33,851 nucleotides of DNA from Candidatus Fermentibacterota bacterium (GTDB lineage Bacteria > Fermentibacterota > Fermentibacteria > Fermentibacterales > JCC-6): assembly GCA_030609965.1 (NCBI GenBank), contig JAUWSQ010000027.1:1-33851 (forward strand). The letters run 5' to 3'. Positions 3,185 through 18,827 of this stretch are shown here, one piece after another. Position numbers and translations under genes: made by a program. Below the pieces are notes generated by a model that was not told the DNA's origin, did not search any database, and saw nothing but the letters and a program-made list of their open reading frames with translations. Positions within the stretch are counted from its first letter, which is position 1. Each line of letters begins with the position of its first letter.

Positions 3185-4007
3185 AGACGCGTACTTAATA
3201 ATAATCGGGGCGATGAAGAGTGGAACCACATCTCTCTATTCTTACCTGGCGCAACATCCGCAGATCTGTGAATGCAGAGTTAAGGAGCCGGAGTTTTTCT
3301 CACGGCACCAGAGCCATGGAGAGAAAGAAACTGATTACGAAGATTTATGGGACTTTCAAGATTCCGTTCACAGATATGTCCTTGATGGCTCTACAGGATA
3401 TACCAAGTACCCCATGGAAAAGGGTGTTCCAGAAAGAATCAGAACCCTCGGAATTGATCCGTGGTTTCTCTACATCCTGAGAGATCCGTTTGAGAGAATT
3501 GAATCTCACTACAATTCTGGTCGCTTCAACGTCGAGTGGAAACACTGTATTCTTGACGAACACCTGATAAATGTCAGCAATTACTATATACAGCTTCAGC
3601 GTTTTCGCCGGTTTTTCCCTCGGAACAGATTCCTGCTTCTGGATTTCAGTCAGATGAAAACAGACCCGCAGAAAGTACTCTGTAAAATCTATGATTTTCT
3701 GCATCTGGATCATTCATTCTTTCCCGATTCGTATCAAAAAAAGAATGAAACTGTATACAGCAACAGATTTGAACTTATCTACAGAAAGATGATCAGAACT
3801 GTGGGAATTAACAGAATAATACCTGAATCACTGAAGAAACAGGGACGCAAAATTCATTCCCGCTCCGCTCGCATACCCAGAAAACTTCTGACGAAGGAAG
3901 AGAGAGAAAGAATTCATAATATTCTTGAAGCGGATATGATCAAACTGCGGGACGAGTATGATTTTGATGTAGCGAAATGGGGTTTTGGAATAGATGATGG
4001 GTTATGA
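3168..4007 (+). CDS. Sulfotransferase family protein (PAPS-dependent)
   Basis: A 279-aa enzyme expected to transfer sulfate from PAPS to a hydroxyl or amino group. The 5'-phosphosulfate loop is IIIGAMKSGTTSLYSYLAQH (residues about 11-30). The 3'-phosphate site is YILRDPFERIESHYN (about 101-115), with Arg and Ser in the usual places. The C-terminal third is basic. Length suits bacterial heparan-sulfotransferase-like or Stf0/NodH-like enzymes. Translation starts inside the 3' end of the ligase gene; the stop overlaps the convergent MurJ-family stop by 6 nt. Location beside glycosyltransferases and a polymerase suggests that it sulfates the polysaccharide made by this island (inference). Confidence 0.9.
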   Translation: MSSIPEDAYLIIIGAMKSGTTSLYSYLAQHPQICECRVKEPEFFSRHQSHGEKETDYEDLWDFQDSVHRYVLDGSTGYTKYPMEKGVPERIRTLGIDPWFLYILRDPFERIESHYNSGRFNVEWKHCILDEHLINVSNYYIQLQRFRRFFPRNRFLLLDFSQMKTDPQKVLCKIYDFLHLDHSFFPDSYQKKNETVYSNRFELIYRKMIRTVGINRIIPESLKKQGRKIHSRSARIPRKLLTKEERERIHNILEADMIKLRDEYDFDVAKWGFGIDDGL

Positions 4008-5600
4008 TACTCCGGGGGGAAGTTCTTTTCCCGAGAATAACTTTCGCTTAACAACATTCACATAAATTCTGAAGGTTGTCGAACCGAGAAGCCCAGTTAC
4101 TGCAATGTAAAGGACAATTCCCGGTATAATGCGTATTAGCAGGTTGTAGATTCTACCGGGAAGCGCTGCATGCAGGTCAAAGGGAAAAAGTTTACCGGAA
4201 AGTACAAGATATCCTACCATAATAATCGTCGCTGTAAGGATTTTCAGATACTCAGGAACGAACACGGAACCGTTTATCCCTCCAAGTTTCTTCCGAAGAA
4301 AATACATCTGAAAGAGGGTCTTCGCTGATGATGTTAGTGTAGTCGCCAGAGCAAGCCCCGCTATTCCCATCGGCTGAATGAGAATGATATTTAGCAGAAT
4401 ATTCGCAAACACTGCCCATATTCCCAGGACAACAGGAATTAACGTCTCTTTTGTTGAGTAGAAGGCTCTTCTTATGAGCAGCCCAATTCCTATCTGGGCA
4501 AACCATGGTGAATAGAATGCTAGAGCATAACCAATGCGTTGCGACTGCTCAGGACCGAAATTACCCCTCTGAAAAAGGACGGATATCATCGGTACTGAAA
4601 GAACAACAAGGATTCCAGAGGCAGGTACGGTGTAATAGGAAATGTACTTTATGAAACTTGCTATTTCACCTTTCAGCTTTTGAATATTATTCCCGGCTGC
4701 AATTTTTGCGAATGAAACCGTTGACAGGATGATAATAGGCTGAATCAGAACGATTCGTATCAGATTTCTAATTCGTGCGGCATAATCTATAGCTGTTACC
4801 GAACTTGCCCTGAGTAATGAAGCCAGTATCTTATCCGCCACAGGGCTGAGATAACCGGTAATAACGCCTATTATGATAGGTACAGCAAGTCTTATCATTT
4901 CCCTGAAATCACGGTCTCGTGGATCAATCACCATCATGTAACGCAGGCGAAGACGTAGAGAAAGAACTGCAGATATGGAGAACGACACCATTGCCCCTGC
5001 AACGCCGGATATTGGTATTACCATAATACCGAGACTTTTATGTCCCAGAAGGAGAACTATGTATGAAACAGTAATCTGAAAAACACGGACAAAACTGACA
5101 AGACCATACCTTTTCCCGTAGATCAAGAAGTTATGCAAAATTCCTTCGATAGAGTTAAGGAAGATCACGGGGAGAAATATTTTCAGCACCTCATTTGCAA
5201 GGACAGCTGCATTCTCCTGTAATCCCGGACCAATAATTCTGACAACTGATGATCCGAATAGAAACACAGCACCGATAAGTATTGCACCCGATATGGACAT
5301 CCAATTGATTATTCTGCTGATCAGACGATTTGCAGCAACATCTCCCTTACCGAGCATTACTCTTGAATAAATAGGCATGAATGCGACGCCGAAAGCAGTG
5401 GATATCACCTGTTGGAGAAGTATGGGAATCACCATGGCGATTGAAATTGCGTCTGTCTGCCAGGTAGTACCGAAAATCTTTGCTATTTCGGCGAACCGGA
5501 GATAAGTAACAAGAGCGATTAAAAGATTCCCGATCGAAAGAAGAGAGAACCCCGCTCTCTTACCCTTTTCACCTCCCAGCCAGCCTAGAACTCTTTTCAA
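4002..5600 (-). CDS. murJ: MurJ/MviN-family lipid-linked precursor flippase
   Basis: A 532-aa MOP-superfamily membrane protein with about 14 hydrophobic segments. The N-terminus has the family pattern GFSLLSIGNLLIALVTYLRF ... FGTTWQTDAISIA, followed by PILLQQVISTAFGVAFMPIY, close to the conserved MurJ region for the cavity-lining first helices. Length agrees with MurJ (about 510-530 aa). It flips lipid-linked oligosaccharides across the inner membrane. In a polysaccharide island it may serve an exopolysaccharide rather than lipid II, so the symbol is family-level. The minus-strand start is followed upstream by about 180 nt with no gene. A remnant of a second, similar gene is at 13046-13255. 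Confidence 0.88.
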   Translation of the reverse strand: MKRVLGWLGGEKGKRAGFSLLSIGNLLIALVTYLRFAEIAKIFGTTWQTDAISIAMVIPILLQQVISTAFGVAFMPIYSRVMLGKGDVAANRLISRIINWMSISGAILIGAVFLFGSSVVRIIGPGLQENAAVLANEVLKIFLPVIFLNSIEGILHNFLIYGKRYGLVSFVRVFQITVSYIVLLLGHKSLGIMVIPISGVAGAMVSFSISAVLSLRLRLRYMMVIDPRDRDFREMIRLAVPIIIGVITGYLSPVADKILASLLRASSVTAIDYAARIRNLIRIVLIQPIIILSTVSFAKIAAGNNIQKLKGEIASFIKYISYYTVPASGILVVLSVPMISVLFQRGNFGPEQSQRIGYALAFYSPWFAQIGIGLLIRRAFYSTKETLIPVVLGIWAVFANILLNIILIQPMGIAGLALATTLTSSAKTLFQMYFLRKKLGGINGSVFVPEYLKILTATIIMVGYLVLSGKLFPFDLHAALPGRIYNLLIRIIPGIVLYIAVTGLLGSTTFRIYVNVVKRKLFSGKELPPGVS

Positions 5601-5779: not shown

Positions 5780-6171
5780 CGAGTCCATACCAAGGAGCTC
5801 TTAATTATCTCTGATGATGGTGGTAGTAACGGTTCACGTAATCGTTTATGGAAGTTGGAGCTCCAAAAATTTGCGGACTGGGCTCATTTGAAAGTAACTA
5901 TGTTTCATTTCCCTCCAGGCACAAGTAAATGGTATAAGATTGAACATCGAATGTTTTCGCATATTACCCAGAACTGGCGAGGCAGGCCTTTGACGAGTTA
6001 TGAGGTTATTGTCAACTTAATCGCAAACATAACTACGAAGACGGGATTAAGGATACAGGCAGCACTTGATTCTAAAAAGTATCCAATAGCGAAATGAAAG
6101 TGATTAAACTTAAAAGGAATTCTTTTCACGGGGAGTGGAATTATTCTATCGATTTCACCTCAAACCGATGA
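5780..6171 (+). pseudogene. ISAzo13-type transposase, C-terminal fragment with frameshift
   Basis: The reading frame from about 5780 gives KELLIISDDGGSNGSRNRLW, then FPPGTSKWYKIEHRMFSHI and NWRGRPLTSYEVIVNLIAN. These are hallmark ISAzo13-family sequences: the DGGGSN and FPPGTSKWNKIEHR regions carrying the second and third acidic residues of the DDE transposase. The frame stops at TGA 6095-6097 after YPIAK. The family's C-terminal sequence continues in a shifted frame (KRNSFHGEWNYSI) to TGA at 6169-6171, so one frameshift is present. An in-frame stop at 5777-5779 and loss of everything upstream show that the N-terminal three quarters is gone. It converges on an IS91-type fragment only 6 nt away. 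Confidence 0.85.
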
Positions 6172-6177
6172 GTTATA

Positions 6178-6567
6178 TTATTTTAAACTTATAGTGATCG
6201 AGTCCCACGCACATCTGCAGAGCTTAGGCAGAAGCTTCCGATGATGCAGGAAATGCAGCCTGAGTATCTTCGGAACACTCCACACCCAGTGACGATGATT
6301 AACTGACCTGAATAGTTCTTCCTCAAGGAAGATTGCAAGGTTTAATGAATTCCGCTTCGAGCAGGATGGGCAGAAACCACGACATTTGCAGGAGAAGGCT
6401 CTCAGGTATTCTGCTCCGCACTCCTTGCAGCGAATCCTGGCAAAGCCGTAGCGCTTGGAAAAGCGTTCGTCATACACATTTCTGAATTCTTCGTAATAGC
6501 CATCCAGTAATCTGAATAGAGAGGTATGAACCACGGAAAAACCTTCAAAGACTGCTTGAAGCATCAC
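6178..6567 (-). pseudogene. IS91-type (Y2) transposase, N-terminal fragment
   Basis: The 129-codon frame contains YDERFSKRYGFARIRCKECG, AFSCKCRGFCPSCSKRNSL and LPKLCRCAWDSI. This matches the N-terminal zinc-binding region of IS91-family HUH transposases (pattern YDERF...RYG, FARIRCxxCG, AFSCK.R.FCPSC..K, LGKLCRCAWESL). The catalytic HUH and tyrosine regions are missing because the frame ends shortly after the last motif. Between RYG and GFARIRC the family normally has roughly 20 more residues (a VVEKF.DCGD segment), so an internal deletion is likely. The fragment lies head-on to the ISAzo13 fragment, and its 5' side abuts the truncated GT4 gene at about 6590, so it probably marks the event that removed that gene's 5' half. 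Confidence 0.82.
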
Positions 6568-6595
6568 AGCATCGATTTCTGGAATTCCACATTCA

Positions 6596-7033
6596 ATGGT
6601 AACAACGGGAGGCCTTGGATGGAAATATGAGAGAATTCTGGATACTGTCTCACATCATCCTTGCAGTGACAAAACACACCTTACAGGTTTCGTGGAAGAT
6701 GATGATCTCGTAGTCCTGCTTTCTCTTGCGGATTTTCTGGTTTATCCCTCGATCCTCGAGGGATTCGGTTTGCCAATCCTTGAGGCAATGGCATGCGGTA
6801 CTCCCATTATTACATCGAATGTTTCATCCATGCCTGAAATTGCAGGAGATGCAGCTCTTCTTGTAGACCCGTATTCAGTAGTCTCCATGTCCGAAGGAAT
6901 TGCGGAACTTGGAGGAGATGCTCTTTACAGAAAAGAATTATCTGAAAAGGGAATAAGAAGAGCTCGCTGCTTCTCCTGGAAACAGACTGCTCTGAAGACA
7001 CTGGAAGTCTATAGAAAAGTCATAGCCGGGTAA
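6596..7033 (+). pseudogene. GT4 glycosyltransferase, C-terminal domain only (5' truncated)
   Basis: The 145-codon frame carries the complete C-terminal nucleotide-sugar-binding domain of a GT4 enzyme. It has GGLGWKYE, HLTGFVEDDDLVVLLSLADF, the EX7E motif within SILEGFGLPILEAMACGTPI, and NVSSMPEIAGDAALLVDP. It aligns along its whole length, without gaps, to residues from about 220 onward of the intact GT4 at 13652-14758 (for example YPSILEGFGLPILEAMACGT against YPSILEGFGLPVLEAMACGT). The acceptor-binding N-terminal half is absent; the sequence before about 6590 belongs to the IS91-type fragment. The frame itself is intact, so truncation may be fairly recent. Production of an active enzyme is unlikely. 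Confidence 0.85.
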
Positions 7034-10880: not shown

Positions 10881-12599
10881 ATGAAAGACGAAACCTATTT
10901 CACAAGACCTGTACATGAGTGGCAACGAAGGTACGAAGCTCTGAGGGCTTCATTCGTAGAAAGGCTTCCCGCAAAGGTAGTCGCTGAAAGATTCAATTAC
11001 AGCCCGGGTTATATCCATCTTCTCAGACACCAGTTCAGGAACGGCAAGATAGACTTCTCTGAACCGATCCAGGAGGGAAAGGTCAAGAGACTCAAGGTCA
11101 CGTCCGAGGTGAGAGGGAAGATCAAGGCATGGAGAAGGCAACGCCTATCCGCCGGTGAGATTACCCAGTTGCTCAGTGAGGATGGTATCGAACTCTCCGT
11201 TCGTACTATAGAGCGTGTGCTTGCCGAGGAGGGCTTCGAGAAGCTTCCGCGTCGAACAAGGCTCAGGACAGGATTTACAACCAGGGGAACCGAGGTTCCC
11301 GAGCGGTCTGAATCAGTGACCGTTAAAGAGAGAGATGACGGGGTTTTCGAATCGGATTCCGCGGGGATCTTCCTCTTCGCGCCATTCCTCGCACAGCTCA
11401 ACATTGACGGAATAGTGAAGTCAGCAGGTCTGCCCGGATCGAAGATGATATCTGCGAAGAGTTATCTTCTGTCTTTCCTCGCATTGAAGCTTCTCGGAAC
11501 AGAGAGGTTTGCTCATGCGGGAGATCACGGCTTTGACCAGGCGCTGGGACTCTTTGCTGGGCTCAACGTACTTCCGAAGTGTACTGCCATGTCAACCTAT
11601 TCCTATCAGCTGGACAGGGTGCATATCAGCCGTCTGCAGAAGGCATTCGTCAAACAGGTTTCAAAGTTTGGTCTCTATGACGGCAGCATTGTCAACCTGG
11701 ACTTCCACACCATGCCGCACTTCGGAGATGAATCGGTACTGGAGAAACACAGGGCCGGAGCCAGGAACAAGCGAATGAAGGGGGCTCTGACTCTCTTTGC
11801 CCAGGATGCGGCCACCAGACTGATTCTCTACACGGATGCCGACATCCGTCGCGATGAATCGGATGACCAGGTACTTCAGTTCCTCTCGTTCTGGAAGGGT
11901 ATAAGACGTGGTGTCAGACCGACCCTGATATTCGATTCGAAGTTTACATCCTACGGAAAACTCTCCGAACTCAATGAACAGGGAGTGAAGTTCATCACAC
12001 TCCGGCGGCGGGGGAAGAAGCTGATAGAATCACTGGACGGCATGACCCCATGGAAACGCTTAGACATTCCTCACGAGAAGAGGAAGTACCGTAACCCCCT
12101 TGTACACGAAGAAATGGTTCAGCTCCGAAACTATGACGGAGATGTTCGTCAGGTTGTTGTCCGTGGTAACGGACACGAGAAGCCGGCATTCATTATCAGC
12201 AACGACATCGACATGCCCGTGGAGCTGCTTGTAGGCAACTATGCCAGCAGGTGGAGAGTGGAGAACGGAATAGCCGAGGCAGTGAAGTTCTTCCACATCA
12301 ACTCCCTGTCCTCACCTATTCTGATCAAGATACACTTCGATGTGGCAATGACCATGATCGCGGATACTCTTTACTTCATGCTTGCGAAGAAGCTTCGGGG
12401 CTTCGAGGACAGCAATGCCCCCAAGCTGTACCGTCACTTTATTTGGGGAAAAGGGAAAGTGGTCGTGAAGGATCGAAAGGTCATTGTCACGTATCCCAGA
12501 CGATCACATAATCCGATACTGAGACTTGTTCCGTGGGAGAAATTGCCCTGTGAAGTTCCGGGTCTTGGCAACGCCGAGCTTGAACTACGCTTCCGATGA
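10881..12599 (+). CDS. DDE transposase, IS4-superfamily-like, with N-terminal HTH
   Basis: A 572-aa transposase. Residues about 15-60 (ERLPAKVVAERFNYSPGYIH) and 80-120 (LSAGEITQLLSEDGIELSVR) are two helix-turn-helix units for binding DNA ends. The catalytic domain begins near residue 170. Candidate DDE residues are Asp in NLDFHTMPHFGD (about 272), Asp in LIFDSKFTSYGKL (about 352), and Glu in YASRWRVENGIAEAVKFFHI (about 459), the last resembling the YREK-like signature of IS4-type enzymes. It lacks frameshifts and fills the element between inverted repeats, so it may be active. Subfamily within IS4/IS1634/ISNCY groups is not decided. The next start candidate is far downstream, so ATG 10881 is kept despite a poor RBS. 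Confidence 0.85.
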   Translation: MKDETYFTRPVHEWQRRYEALRASFVERLPAKVVAERFNYSPGYIHLLRHQFRNGKIDFSEPIQEGKVKRLKVTSEVRGKIKAWRRQRLSAGEITQLLSEDGIELSVRTIERVLAEEGFEKLPRRTRLRTGFTTRGTEVPERSESVTVKERDDGVFESDSAGIFLFAPFLAQLNIDGIVKSAGLPGSKMISAKSYLLSFLALKLLGTERFAHAGDHGFDQALGLFAGLNVLPKCTAMSTYSYQLDRVHISRLQKAFVKQVSKFGLYDGSIVNLDFHTMPHFGDESVLEKHRAGARNKRMKGALTLFAQDAATRLILYTDADIRRDESDDQVLQFLSFWKGIRRGVRPTLIFDSKFTSYGKLSELNEQGVKFITLRRRGKKLIESLDGMTPWKRLDIPHEKRKYRNPLVHEEMVQLRNYDGDVRQVVVRGNGHEKPAFIISNDIDMPVELLVGNYASRWRVENGIAEAVKFFHINSLSSPILIKIHFDVAMTMIADTLYFMLAKKLRGFEDSNAPKLYRHFIWGKGKVVVKDRKVIVTYPRRSHNPILRLVPWEKLPCEVPGLGNAELELRFR

Positions 12600-12640
12600 T
12601 TCTCGCAGGAATTCTTATACAGTCATGACGGTTATAGCAG

Positions 12641-12658
12641 TGCGAAAATCGGTGCTCA
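12641..12658 (-). repeat. Right terminal inverted repeat of the 2.1-kb IS
   Basis: Read on the minus strand this is TGAGCACCGATTTTCGCA, matching the left repeat at 10533-10550 in 17 of 18 positions. It lies 41 nt after the transposase stop codon. Confidence 0.75.
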
Positions 12659-12924
12659 ACACGAATCTTACAACAATTCATACATCTCACTCGTGCCGGT
12701 GAATACTTCAAAGTTACAGGAATCCCCCAGAGCGGTACGTGTTTCCAACTGCGTTCTTTGAGCCGATCTCGAACCCGCCCAAGTTTACCACAGGTCCCAT
12801 ACGGTTGTCTGCGACGCTTGTAAATATCTAACTTCACTGTGATTCCTGAAGAATTCTGGGTTACTTTCTTGACTACCTGACTCTTGATTCCCAACGTGTT
12901 TATGACAATACTACTTACGAGCAT
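12659..12924 (-). pseudogene. ISL3-type transposase, N-terminal fragment interrupted by the IS
   Basis: From an ATG at plus-strand 12922-12924, preceded by GGAAGGAAAGC, the frame reads SSGITVKLDIYKRRR, then RSWKHVPLWGIPVTLKYSPA and RVRCMNCCKIRVEH. This is the N-terminal zinc-finger region of ISL3-family transposases (pattern RxWRHLDLWGVPVxLEYxPRRVRCPxCGVRVE). One of the usual cysteines in the first knuckle is missing (YGTCGKLG). Family resemblance ends at RVEH, exactly at the tip of the 2.1-kb IS, and the frame then reads into IS sequence. The DDE domain is absent from the window. Confidence 0.78.
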
Positions 12925-13045
12925 GTGCTTTCCTTCCTGTTTTACGGTGTCGGAAAACAATGTAAATACAATGGTTAGCACATACTCGTCAACTCATTTC
13001 GTGCACAGATTCTTGTGAGGAGCCAATTTATATTTTTTCTGAGAG

Positions 13046-13255
13046 TTAACAGGAGCTCATCTGCTTTCCCCTTCGATGCCTCAGCAGAAAAACTAAGATC
13101 CGCGAAAATGAGAAAAGGCTGAAAGACGACAGCAAGAGCGATGTTATCTGTGCAAAGCGGACATAGGTGTATAAAGCGGTGAAGACACTGCTTGCGGAAA
13201 GGGCGGAAAACCCAAGAAGTTTGCTTTCTCCCGCAGGTCTGGGTTTATCAGCCAT
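13046..13255 (-). pseudogene. Remnant of a second MurJ/MviN-family gene (N-terminus)
   Basis: The 69-codon frame starts with ADKPRPAGESKLLGFSALSA and continues TALYTYVRFAQI. This matches the start of the MurJ-family protein encoded at 4002-5600 (GEKGKRAGFSLLS ... ALVTYLRFAEI) at the same spacing. Beyond FAQI the similarity stops and about 30 hydrophobic then basic residues follow (ending HRRGKQMSSC). These could be the C-terminal tail joined by an internal deletion, though that is a guess. About 460 codons are missing, so no functional flippase is made. It lies 3 nt downstream of the GreA-fusion 5' remnant on the same strand. Confidence 0.6.
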
Positions 13256-13258
13256 CTG

Positions 13259-13390
13259 CTAAACGGAGGGGAGTATGGATAAAGCCTCTGCCATTTCATC
13301 GTATGAGACTGCTTGATTGAAGGATTTAAATCGGAAATTAGAAAGAGTATGGTATTCATAAACATCTGTGATGCCGGTTAAACTGGACAA
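13259..13390 (-). pseudogene. 5' remnant of a second GreA-fusion gene
   Basis: A TTG start (plus-strand 13388-13390) with AGGAGG-type RBS opens 43 codons. They align without gaps to the first 43 residues of the 702-aa GreA-fusion protein (start 18756). Both begin MS, both end SYDEM...SIL, and the remnant reads AVSYDEMAEALSIL where the intact gene reads ASYDEMIGSFSIL. The upstream DNA is also alike: TCTCAGAtAGGAGG before the start and a shared ATA-TTATC motif about 35 nt upstream. A TAG at 13259-13261 ends the frame just after the alignable part. Because promoter-proximal sequence and RBS are kept, a 43-aa peptide could still be made. The matching 3' end is found displaced at 14831-15241. Confidence 0.65.
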
Positions 13391-13481
13391 TCGCCCTCCT
13401 ATCTGAGAAAGGATAAGATACTGTTGAATATCCATTGAAAGTATACGCAGCCGATGCAATATGCAAAAAGGAGAATACCAT

Positions 13482-13649
13482 GTGGTGAAGCGGTTTTTTG
13501 ACGGAAGTAGAATTTGCGAGTTACTGAGGCTCTCTATATATTTTTTCGTACTTTTTGCAATAGATTCTATTAACCATCTTCTGGTGAAAAATGCGCGGAT
13601 TGTTTTTCCTCAGAATCCTCGTGCCAGAGTACGGAAAAGGCAGTGCTGA
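13482..13649 (+). CDS. Small putative single-span membrane protein, unknown
   Basis: A 55-aa frame starting at GTG 13482 (GTG GTG AAG), 8 nt after a strong AAGGAG (13468-13473). An in-frame ATG at 13461 lacks an RBS. The sequence has one hydrophobic stretch (LRLSIYFFVLFAIDSI, about residues 13-28) between basic ends, and a very basic C-terminus (PRARVRKRQC), as in a single-span membrane peptide. I recognise no family. Its TGA lies 2 nt before the ATG of the GT4 gene, so the two are probably translationally coupled and this product could tether or assist the transferase. The alternative is a leftover fragment of an older gene, since remnants surround it. Confidence 0.4.
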   Translation: MVKRFFDGSRICELLRLSIYFFVLFAIDSINHLLVKNARIVFPQNPRARVRKRQC

Positions 13650-13651
13650 AT

Positions 13652-14758
13652 ATGAGAATCGGAATGAAAATATCTCCGCTGACTGTCCTGAAAGCAGGGA
13701 TTCCGAATTATATCATTCATCTTCTGAAGACTCTGTCGGATATAGACCGTCATAACGAGTACTATCTTTACACTAACAGACCTGTTCCGTTTGAGATGAA
13801 TCTTTCCGACAGGTTCAAAATAGTAACTGTTTCTCTCCCGTCTCCTCACCTGCAGTTATGGTATCAGGCAGGTCTGCCCCTGCGAATGAAAAAAGATGGG
13901 ATCCAGCTTTTTCATGACCCCGTTTACCCGCTGCCGTTCATTTTGCCCGTACCCGGGGTAATAACCGTACACGATCTCTCAAACTACACTGATCCGGGAG
14001 TTCACAGATTCAGATCATCACTTGCAGGCAGGTATTTTCCGATGTATCTCAGGAAAGCACGTCAAATCATAACCGATTCCTTATTCACTGCTTCTGAACT
14101 TGAAAGGATATTTCCATGGACTGCGCACAAGATCAACGTGATACACCTTGGGGTTGCTGACAGATTCCACCGGATAACTTGCAAAAATACGCTTGAATCC
14201 ATCAGGAAATTATACAATCTCCCGCCTCGATTCATCCTCTTCCTGGGTACTCTTGAACCCAGAAAGAACATAGTAAGACTTCTCGAAGCATTTTCACATT
14301 CATGTTTAAGCATGCCCCTTTCTCTGGTTATTACCGGAGGACTGGGATGGAAATATGACAAACTGCTGAAGATTATTGCCAATCATCCCAATAAAGACAA
14401 AATACACCTTACCGGATATGTTGAGGACGCACATCTCCCCGCACTACTTTCCTCCGCGGAGTTCCTTGCCTATCCTTCCATCCTTGAAGGGTTCGGTCTT
14501 CCTGTTCTCGAGGCTATGGCCTGCGGTACACCGGTATTAACTTCAAATGTTTCATCATTACCGGAGATTGCCGGCGAGGCAGCTTTTCTTGTCGATCCAA
14601 ATTCGGTTGACTCCATATCAAACGGCATAAACCTTCTCAGTCAGAGTGATGAGCTGAAAAAGGATCTGTCCCGGAAAGGGCTTGAAAGAGCCGCCTGTTT
14701 TTCATGGAGGAAAACCGCTCGGAAAACTCTTGAAGTTTATGAAAAAGCTATCGAGTAA
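13652..14758 (+). CDS. GT4 family glycosyltransferase (intact)
   Basis: A 368-aa GT-B enzyme. MRIGMKISPLTVLKAGIPNY is the N-terminal acceptor-domain loop; VITVHDLSNYTDPG and ARQIITDSLFTASELERIF are the usual mid-protein motifs. FILFLGTLEPRKNIVRLLEA opens the donor-binding domain, followed by VITGGLGWKYDK, HLTGYVEDAHLPALLSSAEF, the EX7E motif in SILEGFGLPVLEAMACGTPV, and NVSSLPEIAGEAAFLVDP. This pattern is that of mannosyl/rhamnosyl GT4 enzymes. The ATG at 13652 is preferred over GTG 13643 because MRI is the normal family start and GGAAAAGG lies 11 nt upstream. It is the paralogue of the truncated gene at 6596-7033. It is flanked by GreA-fusion remnants on the opposite strand. Confidence 0.93.
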   Translation: MRIGMKISPLTVLKAGIPNYIIHLLKTLSDIDRHNEYYLYTNRPVPFEMNLSDRFKIVTVSLPSPHLQLWYQAGLPLRMKKDGIQLFHDPVYPLPFILPVPGVITVHDLSNYTDPGVHRFRSSLAGRYFPMYLRKARQIITDSLFTASELERIFPWTAHKINVIHLGVADRFHRITCKNTLESIRKLYNLPPRFILFLGTLEPRKNIVRLLEAFSHSCLSMPLSLVITGGLGWKYDKLLKIIANHPNKDKIHLTGYVEDAHLPALLSSAEFLAYPSILEGFGLPVLEAMACGTPVLTSNVSSLPEIAGEAAFLVDPNSVDSISNGINLLSQSDELKKDLSRKGLERAACFSWRKTARKTLEVYEKAIE

Positions 14759-14830
14759 ACCGCATACCTTCCCAGGAATTCTTTCCTGATGTCACTTATC
14801 TTCTGAAGATCTCAGCAGTACTTCAAGCTG

Positions 14831-15241
14831 TCACTGTTTCACAAGGTCAATCATTTCAAGGAAGGCAATTCTCCATTCTCTCGTATCTTCTCCAGGAAGC
14901 TCTATAATATCTCCGAGAGATTTCCCCAGCAGAGTTTTCCCCAGGGGAGTCATGTAGTTGATTTTTCCCTTCTGTGGATCCGCATCAAGAGGACCGACTA
15001 TATCAACTGTATATACAGTCTCTGATCCTCCACTTTCCTGGAGTTTTACTCTTATGCCGGGACTGACAATATCGGGAGAGATCTGTTCAGGAGGATATGC
15101 GCGGTACTTATGAAGGTCTTCCGTCCATCGTTTGTGCTTGTCCAGCAGCAGGTCCCTCTTCTCTATCGCTGCTGCATATTCTGCATTCTCGGAAAGATCT
15201 CCGTGGGAAGCAGCCTCTCCGATGGCTTCGGCTGCAGCCGG
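14831..15241 (-). pseudogene. 3' remnant of a second GreA-fusion gene (GreA domain, no start)
   Basis: Read on the minus strand from 15241, 136 codons are open without any frameshift to TGA at 14831-14833. They encode the whole GreA-type domain: AAAEAIGEAASHGDLSENAE, AAAIEKRDLLLDK, VSPGIRVKLQESGGSETV, VDIVGPLDADPQ, INYMTPLGKTLLGKSLGD and TREWRIAFLEMIDLVKQ. Each matches the C-terminus of the intact gene at 16648-18756. The acidic GDLSENAEY tip needed for RNA cleavage is retained. There is no start codon near 15241; instead sequence switches there to a sulfotransferase fragment on the other strand. The first 106 bp are nearly identical to the intact gene, the remainder clearly diverged. Confidence 0.85.
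15136..15241 (-). repeat. 106-bp near-identical tract shared with 16953-17058
   Basis: 15136-15241 and 16953-17058 differ at only two positions by hand alignment. The adjoining downstream parts of the same two coding frames (14831-15135 and 16648-16952) differ at many sites, including third codon positions. The tract codes for the GDLSENAEY coiled-coil tip of the GreA domain and ends exactly where 15242 turns into unrelated sequence. Confidence 0.85.
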
Positions 15242-15941
15242 AATCCATTCTGCACAGCGATCGCCTCATTGCAGGTTCGGTAAGGAACCCCTGGGACTGG
15301 TACGTATCGGTATGGGCATACGGGTGTGATGAAAAAGGAGTACTTTACAACAGGCTCGCCGGATCGAGAAAACTCCTGGGATACGGATACCGGCAGTCAT
15401 TCCTTACAAGTCTGTCGAACTGTCTGCATGAATTATGCCGTCCTCGTTGCCCTGGCGCGAGACATACACCGATTCTTCATCTCCAATTCTATTCAGGCGA
15501 TGGCTCACCGCTTTGCTGGATCCGGAGAGGAGCCGGGGCCTCGGGGAATATTACAGCAGATCACCGCTGAGCAGGTTTGCAGGTTTCTATACTTATCGAT
15601 ACTGTTACCTTTTCCACCGTACTCTGGAACATCTTTACGATGGAACCATCCATAACAGAAAGACGCTGCTTGAGGCTGATGAAAAGCTCAATATCATCCA
15701 GCATATGCTTCAGACAGAAAAACTGACTGACGGGATTCTTGAATTGTTTGAAAGCGCTGGAATAAGCCTTGACAAAGAGAACCGGAACAAGATTATAAAA
15801 CTGGATCGAACCAACCCATCCTCCAGAAACAAGGAATTTTCTCTCTACTACAACAAAGAAACCTCAGATCTTGTAGAACGAAGGGATGCTCTGATCGTAG
15901 AAAAATACGGCTACAGCCCTCCTGAGGTCAAAGAACTGTAA
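15242..15941 (+). pseudogene. Sulfotransferase-like gene, 5' truncated and frameshifted
   Basis: The first frame reads RLIAGSVRNPWDWYVSVWAY directly after the breakpoint at 15241. VRNPWDWYVS is the 3'-phosphate-binding motif of a sulfotransferase class in which it lies mid-protein, so the PAPS 5' loop and everything before it are lost. After about 15430 the family-like sequence continues in another frame: SPLSRFAGFYTYRYCYLFHR, then TNPSSRNKEFSLYYNKETSD and LIVEKYGYSPPEV, the usual C-terminal region (YYxxET..LV...D..I..KFGY). Thus there is at least one frameshift between roughly 15360 and 15440. The 3' end overlaps the convergent sulfotransferase gene at 15911 by 31 nt. Confidence 0.78.
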
Positions 15942-16651
15942 ATCATTCCAGCTTTCTCAAGGAGCAAAGAATACCTGCCCGATTCAATCTCCGCTGCCAG
16001 TTTCCGCTTGGGTTCCTCTCTTGAGGAAGAAGGTCTCCCTATGCCGGACTCTTCTACCTTTCCATTCAGATGAGTGCTCCATTCTTCCATCCGTCTGAAG
16101 ATCTCTTCGCGATTCTCCGTTGAATTGATAAAGAGGCTGAAACGGGTGCCAAATTTTAAGTTGATCCTTTCAATAACTGTTCCAAAATCCTCAGAGATCT
16201 CTTCAAACGTGGCCAGGACAAACTCATCTTTGTGCGGTAAGATGCATTCATAAAAGCTGATCCAGTCTCGGAGGCCCTGCTCAAGCTTCCCTGAAGGGGT
16301 TCTGATCTTCTGTGAAATAATCGCGTCGGATGCTTTTCTCAGTATAACAAGTACCGGGATCTTATGACGGCACGCGTAGATGATTTGCGCTGGAACGTGG
16401 AAATGGTGTGCGATTCTCAAAGGATTCTTCTGCGCAAGCCTCATGGCGATAACTGCAAAGGAGTTCCCGGATCGGGGAAATCCCTCGATGACCAGTTCTG
16501 TATCCCTGTTCACCAGTCCGTTTGTTCTGTAAGCCTCCGGAGAAGCGAAATCAGAAGGAACGAACCCTAAACGCCCTGCAAATCTTAGAAGACGATAAAT
16601 GGAAGGAATGCCCCAGAGAGCTCTCTTAAGATCTCTTTTCAGAGATATCAC
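15911..16651 (-). CDS. Sulfotransferase family protein
   Basis: A 246-aa protein with LVIEGFPRSGNSFAVIAMRL (residues about 52-71) as the 5'-phosphosulfate loop (FPRSGNS replaces the commoner PKSGTT) and VLVILRKASDAIISQKI (about 99-115) as the 3'-phosphate site with Arg and Ser. These support PAPS-dependent sulfate transfer. The first 40 residues include LKRALWGIPSIYRLLRFAGR, a basic amphipathic stretch that may lie on the membrane. Its ATG overlaps the TGA of the GreA-fusion gene (ATGA at 16648-16651), so the two are translationally coupled. Acceptor unknown; possibly the local polysaccharide. The pairing of a transcription factor and a sulfotransferase is unexpected and may only reflect operon packing. 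Confidence 0.82.
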   Translation of the reverse strand: MISLKRDLKRALWGIPSIYRLLRFAGRLGFVPSDFASPEAYRTNGLVNRDTELVIEGFPRSGNSFAVIAMRLAQKNPLRIAHHFHVPAQIIYACRHKIPVLVILRKASDAIISQKIRTPSGKLEQGLRDWISFYECILPHKDEFVLATFEEISEDFGTVIERINLKFGTRFSLFINSTENREEIFRRMEEWSTHLNGKVEESGIGRPSSSREEPKRKLAAEIESGRYSLLLEKAGMIYSSLTSGGL

Positions 16652-18756
16652 TTTTCTACCAGGTCGAGGATTTCAAGGGAGACTATTCGCCACTCCGTGC
16701 TGTCATCACCCGGAAGGAATGCTATATCTCCGATTGTTTTTCCCAGAAGAGCATTCCCGAGGGGTGCCATGTAATTGATTCTGGCATTTTCCGGGTCTGC
16801 GTCCAGCGGGCCAACGATATCAATTACCTGCACAGTCTCTGCTCCCCCACTTTCCTGAAGCTTTACCCTGATGCCCGGGCTGACAGTGTCAGATGTGATT
16901 TCATCGAGTGGGTATACCATGTACATCTGAAGTTCCTTCATCCACCGATTAAGCTTGTCCAGCAGCAGGTCCCTCTTCTCTATCGCTGCGGCATATTCTG
17001 CATTCTCGGAAAGGTCTCCGTGGGAAGCAGCCTCTCCGATGGCTTCGGCTGCAGCCGGGATCTCTGACTGCTTCAGCCGGAGACAATCGGCTTCCCGCTG
17101 TTCGATGGCTTCGAAACTTGAGAAAAGACCGCTCGATTCCCAGAAATGTTTTTTTACGGATTTGCCAATGGATGAACTTTTTCTGCGTGAAATCTCCCTT
17201 CCCACAAAGAGGCAGAGACCCTCATTCTGGGCTGTTGCGCTTGTACTGAAACTGTCAAGGTAATTACCAAGTTTTCTCGTATCAATTGAAGAGAGATAAC
17301 CGTCCAGTTTTGATTTCAGCGGACCTGTAAGAAGACGGATCACTTTTTTTTGAGTATCAGCAGTGGAAAATATCAGGTAATCGAGGAAAAGGCTGGTCTG
17401 GTTTTCTCCCAGGCTGTCATCCCATTTGTCCCCTCGCGAAGCAAGAAATGCAAGTGTCCAGAGGAACCTGTCAGTTTCAGATGGTTTTGAGAGATAGTCT
17501 CCTATACACTCCGAAAGAAGGTCAGGGTCGAACTCCTCTAGGAAGGCGGTAGCATGTTCCCAGAGCGAACGCCTGAGTCCCGACAGAAGCGTTACTTTTT
17601 CCTCCCGTTCGGTAACCCCTGAGAAAAAGAGATCAAGGTAATCCTTTCTGCATGCGGGAGAAAGGATTTCACCAAGGGCTCTCTCCGCTCTGGCGGCAGT
17701 GGTTTCGAGATAATCGTACTTTATTCCTGCGAATACATCCTTTGTCCCTCTGTTACTGAGAATCCAGCACAGCTCAAACAGCGAACCCGTTTCGGGAGTG
17801 GATATAGTACGCACTTCTTCCAGAAGACCTGTCAGTCCATCGGGAAAGGCGCCTGTGCAGGATTTTAACAGAGCCTTGATTTGTCTTACCTTCTCCCGGG
17901 CGGGTTCTTTCTTTTTGTTGATGATCTTCCCAGCCCGCTCAAGGAATTCCATATTTTCATCCAGAAGTACGATACGATCACCCAGATATAGGAAACCCTC
18001 GGTTGAAACAGATGTTTTCTTCAGTAATTTCCACGCTTCACCGACAGTGAACTCCGAACCGGAGAAAAAAGCATTCAGATCCGCAATGCAGATCTCTCCA
18101 GGATTTACCAGCGGTTCGCAAGCGAGTCTGCAAAGAAACTCAGAAGGGGATTCTCTGAAAAGAGAAGAGAATTCTTCCATACTCCTCCAGGCAAGGACCG
18201 CCAGTGAGTCGGAAGCAATCGGTCTTGTGAATTCGAGAACAACATTCAATTTCATATCATGATTCTGAGCCTTCTGAAAATCTATAGTAGCATGTGTTCG
18301 ACTCATTCTTGTGATCTGTCCGACACCGAAGGTGTTGTGGTACAGATAACCGTCTTTATTGTATTTCATCAGCGAGTTGAAAGCCCGCCATGAAGACTGT
18401 ACGTTACCGTTCTCGTTCTTGAGTCCACTGAGTTTCAGAAATTGTTCGAGAGGCTGAAACATCAGGTAGTCATCCCTTAGCACTTCAATAAGTGCTTTCC
18501 TTAGTGGCTCTGACTCCTGGAATAGATCTGCTGCTTTCAGGAGAAAATCAGAAAAGGCATCTTCTCCATCGGATTCCTTCTCTGTAATTATCAGTTCGAG
18601 AAGTTCTGTTGCAAGACCATATTCTCCCTTGCTCTGAAGTATCGAGAAGGAGCCGATCATTTCATCGTATGATGCGTCGGAGTCAAGGGTTTCGAGCAAT
18701 AGGTCTGTCAGGGTATCGTAATCACCAGCACTTGCGGCATCGAGTATTTTGGACAA
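16648..18756 (-). CDS. greA: GreA-type transcript cleavage factor fused to a long N-terminal region
   Basis: A 702-aa protein. The last ~160 residues are a GreA/GreB unit: the coiled coil with AAAEAIGEAASHGDLSENAE and EYAAAIEKRDLLLDKLNRWM, carrying the tip Asp and Glu (in GDLSENAEY) that hold Mg2+ for RNA cleavage in the RNA polymerase secondary channel. The FKBP-like domain follows with VDIV/IDIVGPLDADPE, INYMAPLGNALLGKTIGDI and WRIVSLEI. Residues 1 to about 530 look mostly helical and repeat-like; I recognise no domain. A comparable GreA with a large N-terminal extension is known in Chlamydiae (about 720 aa). The start is TTG (18754-18756), 4 nt after AGGAGG. It is divergent from the Tat-protein gene. 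Confidence 0.88.
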   Translation of the reverse strand: MSKILDAASAGDYDTLTDLLLETLDSDASYDEMIGSFSILQSKGEYGLATELLELIITEKESDGEDAFSDFLLKAADLFQESEPLRKALIEVLRDDYLMFQPLEQFLKLSGLKNENGNVQSSWRAFNSLMKYNKDGYLYHNTFGVGQITRMSRTHATIDFQKAQNHDMKLNVVLEFTRPIASDSLAVLAWRSMEEFSSLFRESPSEFLCRLACEPLVNPGEICIADLNAFFSGSEFTVGEAWKLLKKTSVSTEGFLYLGDRIVLLDENMEFLERAGKIINKKKEPAREKVRQIKALLKSCTGAFPDGLTGLLEEVRTISTPETGSLFELCWILSNRGTKDVFAGIKYDYLETTAARAERALGEILSPACRKDYLDLFFSGVTEREEKVTLLSGLRRSLWEHATAFLEEFDPDLLSECIGDYLSKPSETDRFLWTLAFLASRGDKWDDSLGENQTSLFLDYLIFSTADTQKKVIRLLTGPLKSKLDGYLSSIDTRKLGNYLDSFSTSATAQNEGLCLFVGREISRRKSSSIGKSVKKHFWESSGLFSSFEAIEQREADCLRLKQSEIPAAAEAIGEAASHGDLSENAEYAAAIEKRDLLLDKLNRWMKELQMYMVYPLDEITSDTVSPGIRVKLQESGGAETVQVIDIVGPLDADPENARINYMAPLGNALLGKTIGDIAFLPGDDSTEWRIVSLEILDLVEK

Positions 18757-18827
18757 TCTTCCTCCTGTCTGAGAAGCGATAATATACTGAGTGGATAGAC
18801 GTATAAGTAATGGCAGGAGGAAGAAAT

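Follow-up and report, generated by a model that had tools for sequence, protein, structure and literature searches.

Background

T6SS effector-immunity modules of Vibrio cholerae undergo sequential displacement: homology anchors one side of an arriving module, which replaces its predecessors, and genes of these previous occupants persist as an array at the border (PMC5361080). Homology-facilitated illegitimate recombination, also suggested by the same authors for these module arrays (PMC5361080), has been the subject of a conjugation test in E. coli (PMC3240628), and work on it in Acinetobacter, Streptococcus and Pseudomonas is cited in PMC5361080. Our search for literature on the scars of polysaccharide-cluster replacement found nothing directly on point.

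In this study, we analyzed a 33,851-nucleotide stretch of DNA from a Candidatus Fermentibacterota bacterium (hereafter the window), focusing on a segment in which broken pieces of a GreA-fusion gene, a MurJ gene and a sulfotransferase-like gene surround an intact GT4 glycosyltransferase gene. We assign a probability of roughly 0.72 to the reading that this segment is recombination debris, produced by successive exchanges at the right (GreA) border of a variable polysaccharide-gene island. Such a process belongs to a known kind, with no new mechanism or working new system, and most biologists would see in it an ordinary result of genome turnover. As in the V. cholerae T6SS arrays, there is a one-sided homology anchor and remnants of earlier occupants lie at the border; whereas immunity genes are kept there, the leftovers here come from the broken border gene of a polysaccharide island and are probably functionless. 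The apparent pairing of one homologous with one illegitimate joint likewise recalls homology-facilitated illegitimate recombination; in contrast to the systems studied for that process, it is read here from one fossil joint.

Genomes compared

The window is an entire contig of a MAG (2.6 Mb, 81 contigs, completeness 80.7%, contamination 0.57%) whose nearest named relatives are Candidatus Fermentibacteraceae and Candidatus Aegiribacteria MAGs. A total of 41 genomes of the same order, comprising 18 of the same genus and 23 others, were compared with it, giving 42 with its own genome. Synteny across the relatives revealed, in most of them, a conserved left block (glycosyltransferase, O-antigen-ligase-like gene, sulfotransferase and MurJ) and a conserved right block (GreA-fusion, Tat-type gene, HAD hydrolase and ABC transporter), between which gene content varies from genome to genome. 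Both outer flanks of the debris region are collinear with the relatives. The features of the region are listed in Table 1.

Table 1. Features at the GreA border of the window (nt, nucleotide identity; aa, amino acid)
Feature	Positions	Strand	Evidence
5' end of ISL3-type transposase relic (ORF 12487-12981)	12867..13031	-	Zn_ribbon_ISL3, E 7e-4, under curated cut-off
MurJ* relic, codons 275-315	13026..13145	-	73% nt to G015, 72% to G010
MurJ* relic, codons 1-41, ATG start	13134..13255	-	70-74% nt to G015/G010; 76% to G025 (another genus)
GreA 5' piece, taken as an older GreA-fusion copy: ~38 codons, Shine-Dalgarno and upstream region	13271..13476	-	64.7% nt to resident gene; changes without third-position bias
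Intact GT4 glycosyltransferase, G010/G015 type	13643..14758	+	PF00534, E 2e-36; sister to G010/G015 GT4 (tree support 89/93)
GreA 3' piece, taken as a divergent, recently cut GreA-fusion copy	14822..15245	-	76.7% nt to 16638-17062, same strand, E 5e-87; third-position bias
Resident-like stretch inside 3' piece	15136..15245	-	97% to 16952-17062; ~107 bp at broken end
GCCGG microhomology at GreA/sulfotransferase joint	15237..15241	.	5 bp common to GreA and sulfotransferase gene
Sulfotransferase-like pseudogene	15238..15941	+	5' end missing, frameshift near 15440; 83% nt to intact G011 gene
Resident intact GreA-fusion gene, right border of island	16648..18756	-	GreA N and C domains, E 3e-11 each; 87% aa identity to G011

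Results and discussion

The resident GreA-fusion gene and its distribution

The resident gene has a continuous frame, a start codon, the N-terminal part and both GreA domains, and is thus a complete GreA-fusion gene. NCBIfam models PRK14720 (906 positions) and PRK06330 (718 positions) likewise describe a large N-terminal part followed by C-terminal GreA domains, although the resident protein scores far under both curated cut-offs and its best-matching stretch is the GreA part. A reading made from the sequence alone (the sequence-only reading) had called this gene rare; within its group it is not, since all 42 Fermentibacterales-type genomes searched (its own and 41 of the order) carry one. A scan of genome contigs retrieved chiefly ordinary GreA of other phyla.

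Partial extra GreA copies inside a contig occur in this genome only, among the 42 of the order; GreA fragments elsewhere lie at contig ends (G002, G007) or represent a single frame-broken gene (G035). The latter (G035:C1:77358-79359) is in three frame-broken pieces, and another GreA-fusion gene (G003:C276:1-981) has an in-frame TAG near its end, both attributable to sequencing errors or decay. Two different GreA-fusion genes, with 83% and 81% aa identity to that of the window, are present in G002 (C17 and C297/C299); with a bin contamination of 7%, they probably belong to two strains.

Identity, order and strand of the pieces

The plus-strand order in the window is ISL3-type fragment, MurJ*, GreA 5' piece, GT4, GreA 3' piece, sulfotransferase and resident GreA, MurJ* being the different MurJ allele carried by G015 and G010. 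Nucleotide alignments to the resident gene place the two GreA pieces on the same strand in the wrong order for one gene, with the opposite-strand GT4 between them, a MurJ relic next to the 5' piece and a truncated sulfotransferase fused to the 3' piece, all as the sequence-only reading had described; its limits needed adjustment, however, as the 5' piece begins at ~13271 rather than 13259, the MurJ piece starts from 13255 and the 3' piece covers 14822-15245. The pieces match many independent orthologues and their similarity is therefore not due to chance; in the relatives their counterparts are segments of GreA, MurJ and sulfotransferase genes rather than unrelated genes.

The two parts of the MurJ relic, which match only this foreign allele, are joined by a deletion of ~0.7 kb. 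Their match to the MurJ that the window itself carries at 4002-5600 is marginal (E 0.035), and MurJ* has 39% aa identity to the latter. Between MurJ* and the MurJ of another genus, aa identity is 71-78%, against only 34% for GreA. From this discrepancy we conclude that MurJ* has moved horizontally between genera, a lipid II flippase-type gene being transferred together with the island. The MurJ* allele common to the two genera was recorded at L032 (1653-3230), L034 (14037-15614), L137 (9860-11392) and L138 (12797-14359).

The GT4 protein has a GT-B C-terminal domain with the EX7E motif (EGFGLPVLE). It is likely an active enzyme and is likely the only piece still functional; its family and neighbouring genes, among them one of Wzy_C type, predict a role as sugar transferase in the making of a surface polysaccharide. 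The ISL3-type fragment, at 12878-13031, is 77% identical in nt to the DNA just upstream of the GT4 in G015 and 76% in G010; copies elsewhere, in G009:C399 (87%) and G011:C151 (75%), weaken the case it makes for a common GT4 flank, and it need not share the history of the GT4.

The sulfotransferase-like pseudogene lacks its first ~55 codons, including the N-terminal part with KTGSS (5'-phosphosulfate-binding motif) expected of a PAPS sulfotransferase, and carries a single frameshift. Pfam gave no match for the intact homologue in G011 either, and the family name therefore comes from motif reading. Ahead of GreA, five relatives (G011, G009, G008, G002 and G012) have an intact sulfotransferase-like gene; in G015 and G010 this place is taken by a GT4 on the plus strand together with another glycosyltransferase.

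The ISL3-type fragment, MurJ*, both GreA pieces and the GT4 all keep the strand that they have in G015 and G010, so that the inversion considered by the sequence-only reading is unnecessary and was rejected. Its other requirements were borne out, namely that a single simple insertion is insufficient and that extra copies and deletions are needed. Circular (Campbell) integration in GreA was also rejected: it predicts the order GreA 5', MurJ*, ISL3, GT4, GreA 3', as opposed to the observed ISL3, MurJ*, GreA 5', GT4, GreA 3'.

Two GreA pieces with different selective histories

The 5' piece (~13271-13423) matches, over 13272-13423, positions 18638-18789 of the resident gene (E 1.4e-11) and the equivalent stretch of about ten relatives (best E 5e-15), the match to G018 reaching 13476, into the promoter. 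Its Shine-Dalgarno sequence and TTG start are still recognisable and a stop follows after ~38 codons; like the 3' piece, it falls short of a GreA-fusion gene. Its distance to all relatives is about equal, and none is singled out as donor type. Private changes at codon positions 1/2/3 number 14/7/4, a small sample of 25, and the piece is taken as an older pseudogene without constraint.

As protein, the 3' piece gave a stop-free match of 136 aa at 72% identity (E 2e-60) in a whole-genome search, and it is closest to G010, with weak tree support (81/75). A working small GreA was rejected, as no in-frame ATG, GTG or TTG occurs before codon 98. Since the absence of stops is weak proof of selection by itself (10% of neutral simulations were stop-free), we turned to codon-position bias. 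With the resident-like stretch set aside, private changes at positions 1/2/3 are 7/4/20, a third-position share reached in 0 of 5000 neutral simulations, and pairwise dN and dS are 0.19-0.22 and 1.0-2.8 (ratio ~0.08-0.21). We take the 3' piece to be a divergent gene that was functional and under purifying selection until recently, and then was cut.

The codon-position spectra of the two pieces differ (14/7/4 versus 7/4/20; Fisher p = 0.0004, with slightly different reference sets). The pieces are therefore probably leftovers of two different extra copies and not of one scrambled gene, which fits better than the single second copy proposed from the sequence alone. One extra GreA cannot give the observed order without a piece being moved, and two extra copies with deletions can. 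That one extra GreA was broken and its pieces passed each other by inversion or transposition around the GT4 is quite unlikely: the 5' and 3' pieces of the same gene do lie less than 2 kb apart, and transposase genes and relics are found near the debris, but every piece keeps its native strand and the two histories differ.

The joint between GreA and the sulfotransferase

At its broken end, the 3' piece contains the stretch in which it hardly differs from the resident GreA. Identity to the resident gene is 97% and 69% on the two sides of ~15136, with differences at 3 of 108 sites in the stretch and 92 of 300 in the rest of the piece (p 4e-11). The same stretch is generally conserved among relatives, though less strongly; the stretch-versus-rest ratio between the 3' piece and the resident gene is the lowest of 190 pairs (median ratio 0.60). 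The stretch stops at GCCGG.

The joint thus shows a switch point between donor and resident sequence (~15136) on one side and, on the other, microhomology (GCCGG) with loss of resident sequence (the sulfotransferase 5' end). We read these as one homologous and one illegitimate joint, which fits homology-facilitated illegitimate recombination. Later gene conversion could give the same appearance to the resident-like stretch, and a small tandem duplication whose left part was then replaced would produce a similar joint. The 68 bp between the GT4 and the 3' piece yielded nothing when traced to a donor.

A purely internal origin, by tandem duplication of the resident GreA region and subsequent deletions without foreign DNA, would account for the near identity of the 107-bp stretch and for a microhomology joint at 15241 resembling that of a tandem duplication. 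It is nevertheless unlikely, given that the remainder of the 3' piece differs from the resident gene by 31%, is closer to G010 and has diverged in the manner of a selected gene, and that neither MurJ* nor the GT4 belongs to the type usual in the window. Misassembly or strain mixture might be suspected in an 81-contig MAG with a 107-bp near-repeat (44 bp exact) at one joint. We regard this as unlikely, because contamination is low, the outer flanks are collinear on both sides, and there are several joints, with the 5' GreA piece, MurJ* and the sulfotransferase each showing decay of its own.

Proposed history of the border

MurJ*, the GT4, the ISL3-type fragment and, weakly, the 3' GreA piece resemble G010/G015, so the remains of a G010/G015-type island seem to lie beside a G009/G011-type border (the sulfotransferase and resident GreA). 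Under the reading of successive exchanges, incoming islands with a GreA of their own would have paired with the resident GreA, and border GreA copies would have been left in tandem, later losing pieces. Several steps are assumed because the order MurJ*, GreA 5', GT4, GreA 3' cannot be reached with fewer than two donor copies; the older MurJ*-GreA 5' scar, flanked by the ISL3-type fragment and the GT4, would mark an earlier event. In the latest event, the incoming GreA may have crossed into the resident GreA within its most conserved stretch and, ~107 bp on, GCCGG would have become the junction with the sulfotransferase gene, which thereby lost its 5' end, the resident GreA remaining whole downstream. 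No intermediate stage was present among the genomes compared.

For an uncultured phylum, the locus shows how polysaccharide islands swap and what remains, and it preserves a joint that can still be read (homologous switch, 107 bp and microhomology). Wrong-order gene fragments need not imply inversion, and the selective history of each piece can reveal different copies. A tentative and rather doubtful extension is that the GreA-fusion gene serves as a regular homologous anchor for the exchange of surface-polysaccharide islands across its order; if so, GreA remnants would be a fossil record of past surface types.

Other genes in the window

An ORF at 15911-16651 (246 aa), between the sulfotransferase and GreA and with no Pfam or NCBIfam match, also occurs in G009 and partly in G012 and is absent at the same place in G011. 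The 3' half of another GT4 gene is present at 6527-7033 (68% nt to the intact GT4 over 366 bp), beside relics of an IS91-type zinc-binding transposase domain (6178-6567) and an ISAZ013-type transposase (5855-6097). An apparently intact 572-aa DDE transposase gene is located at 10881-12599 and matches IS1380 and IS4 models, as well as having an IS481-like N-terminal part, all under the curated cut-offs.
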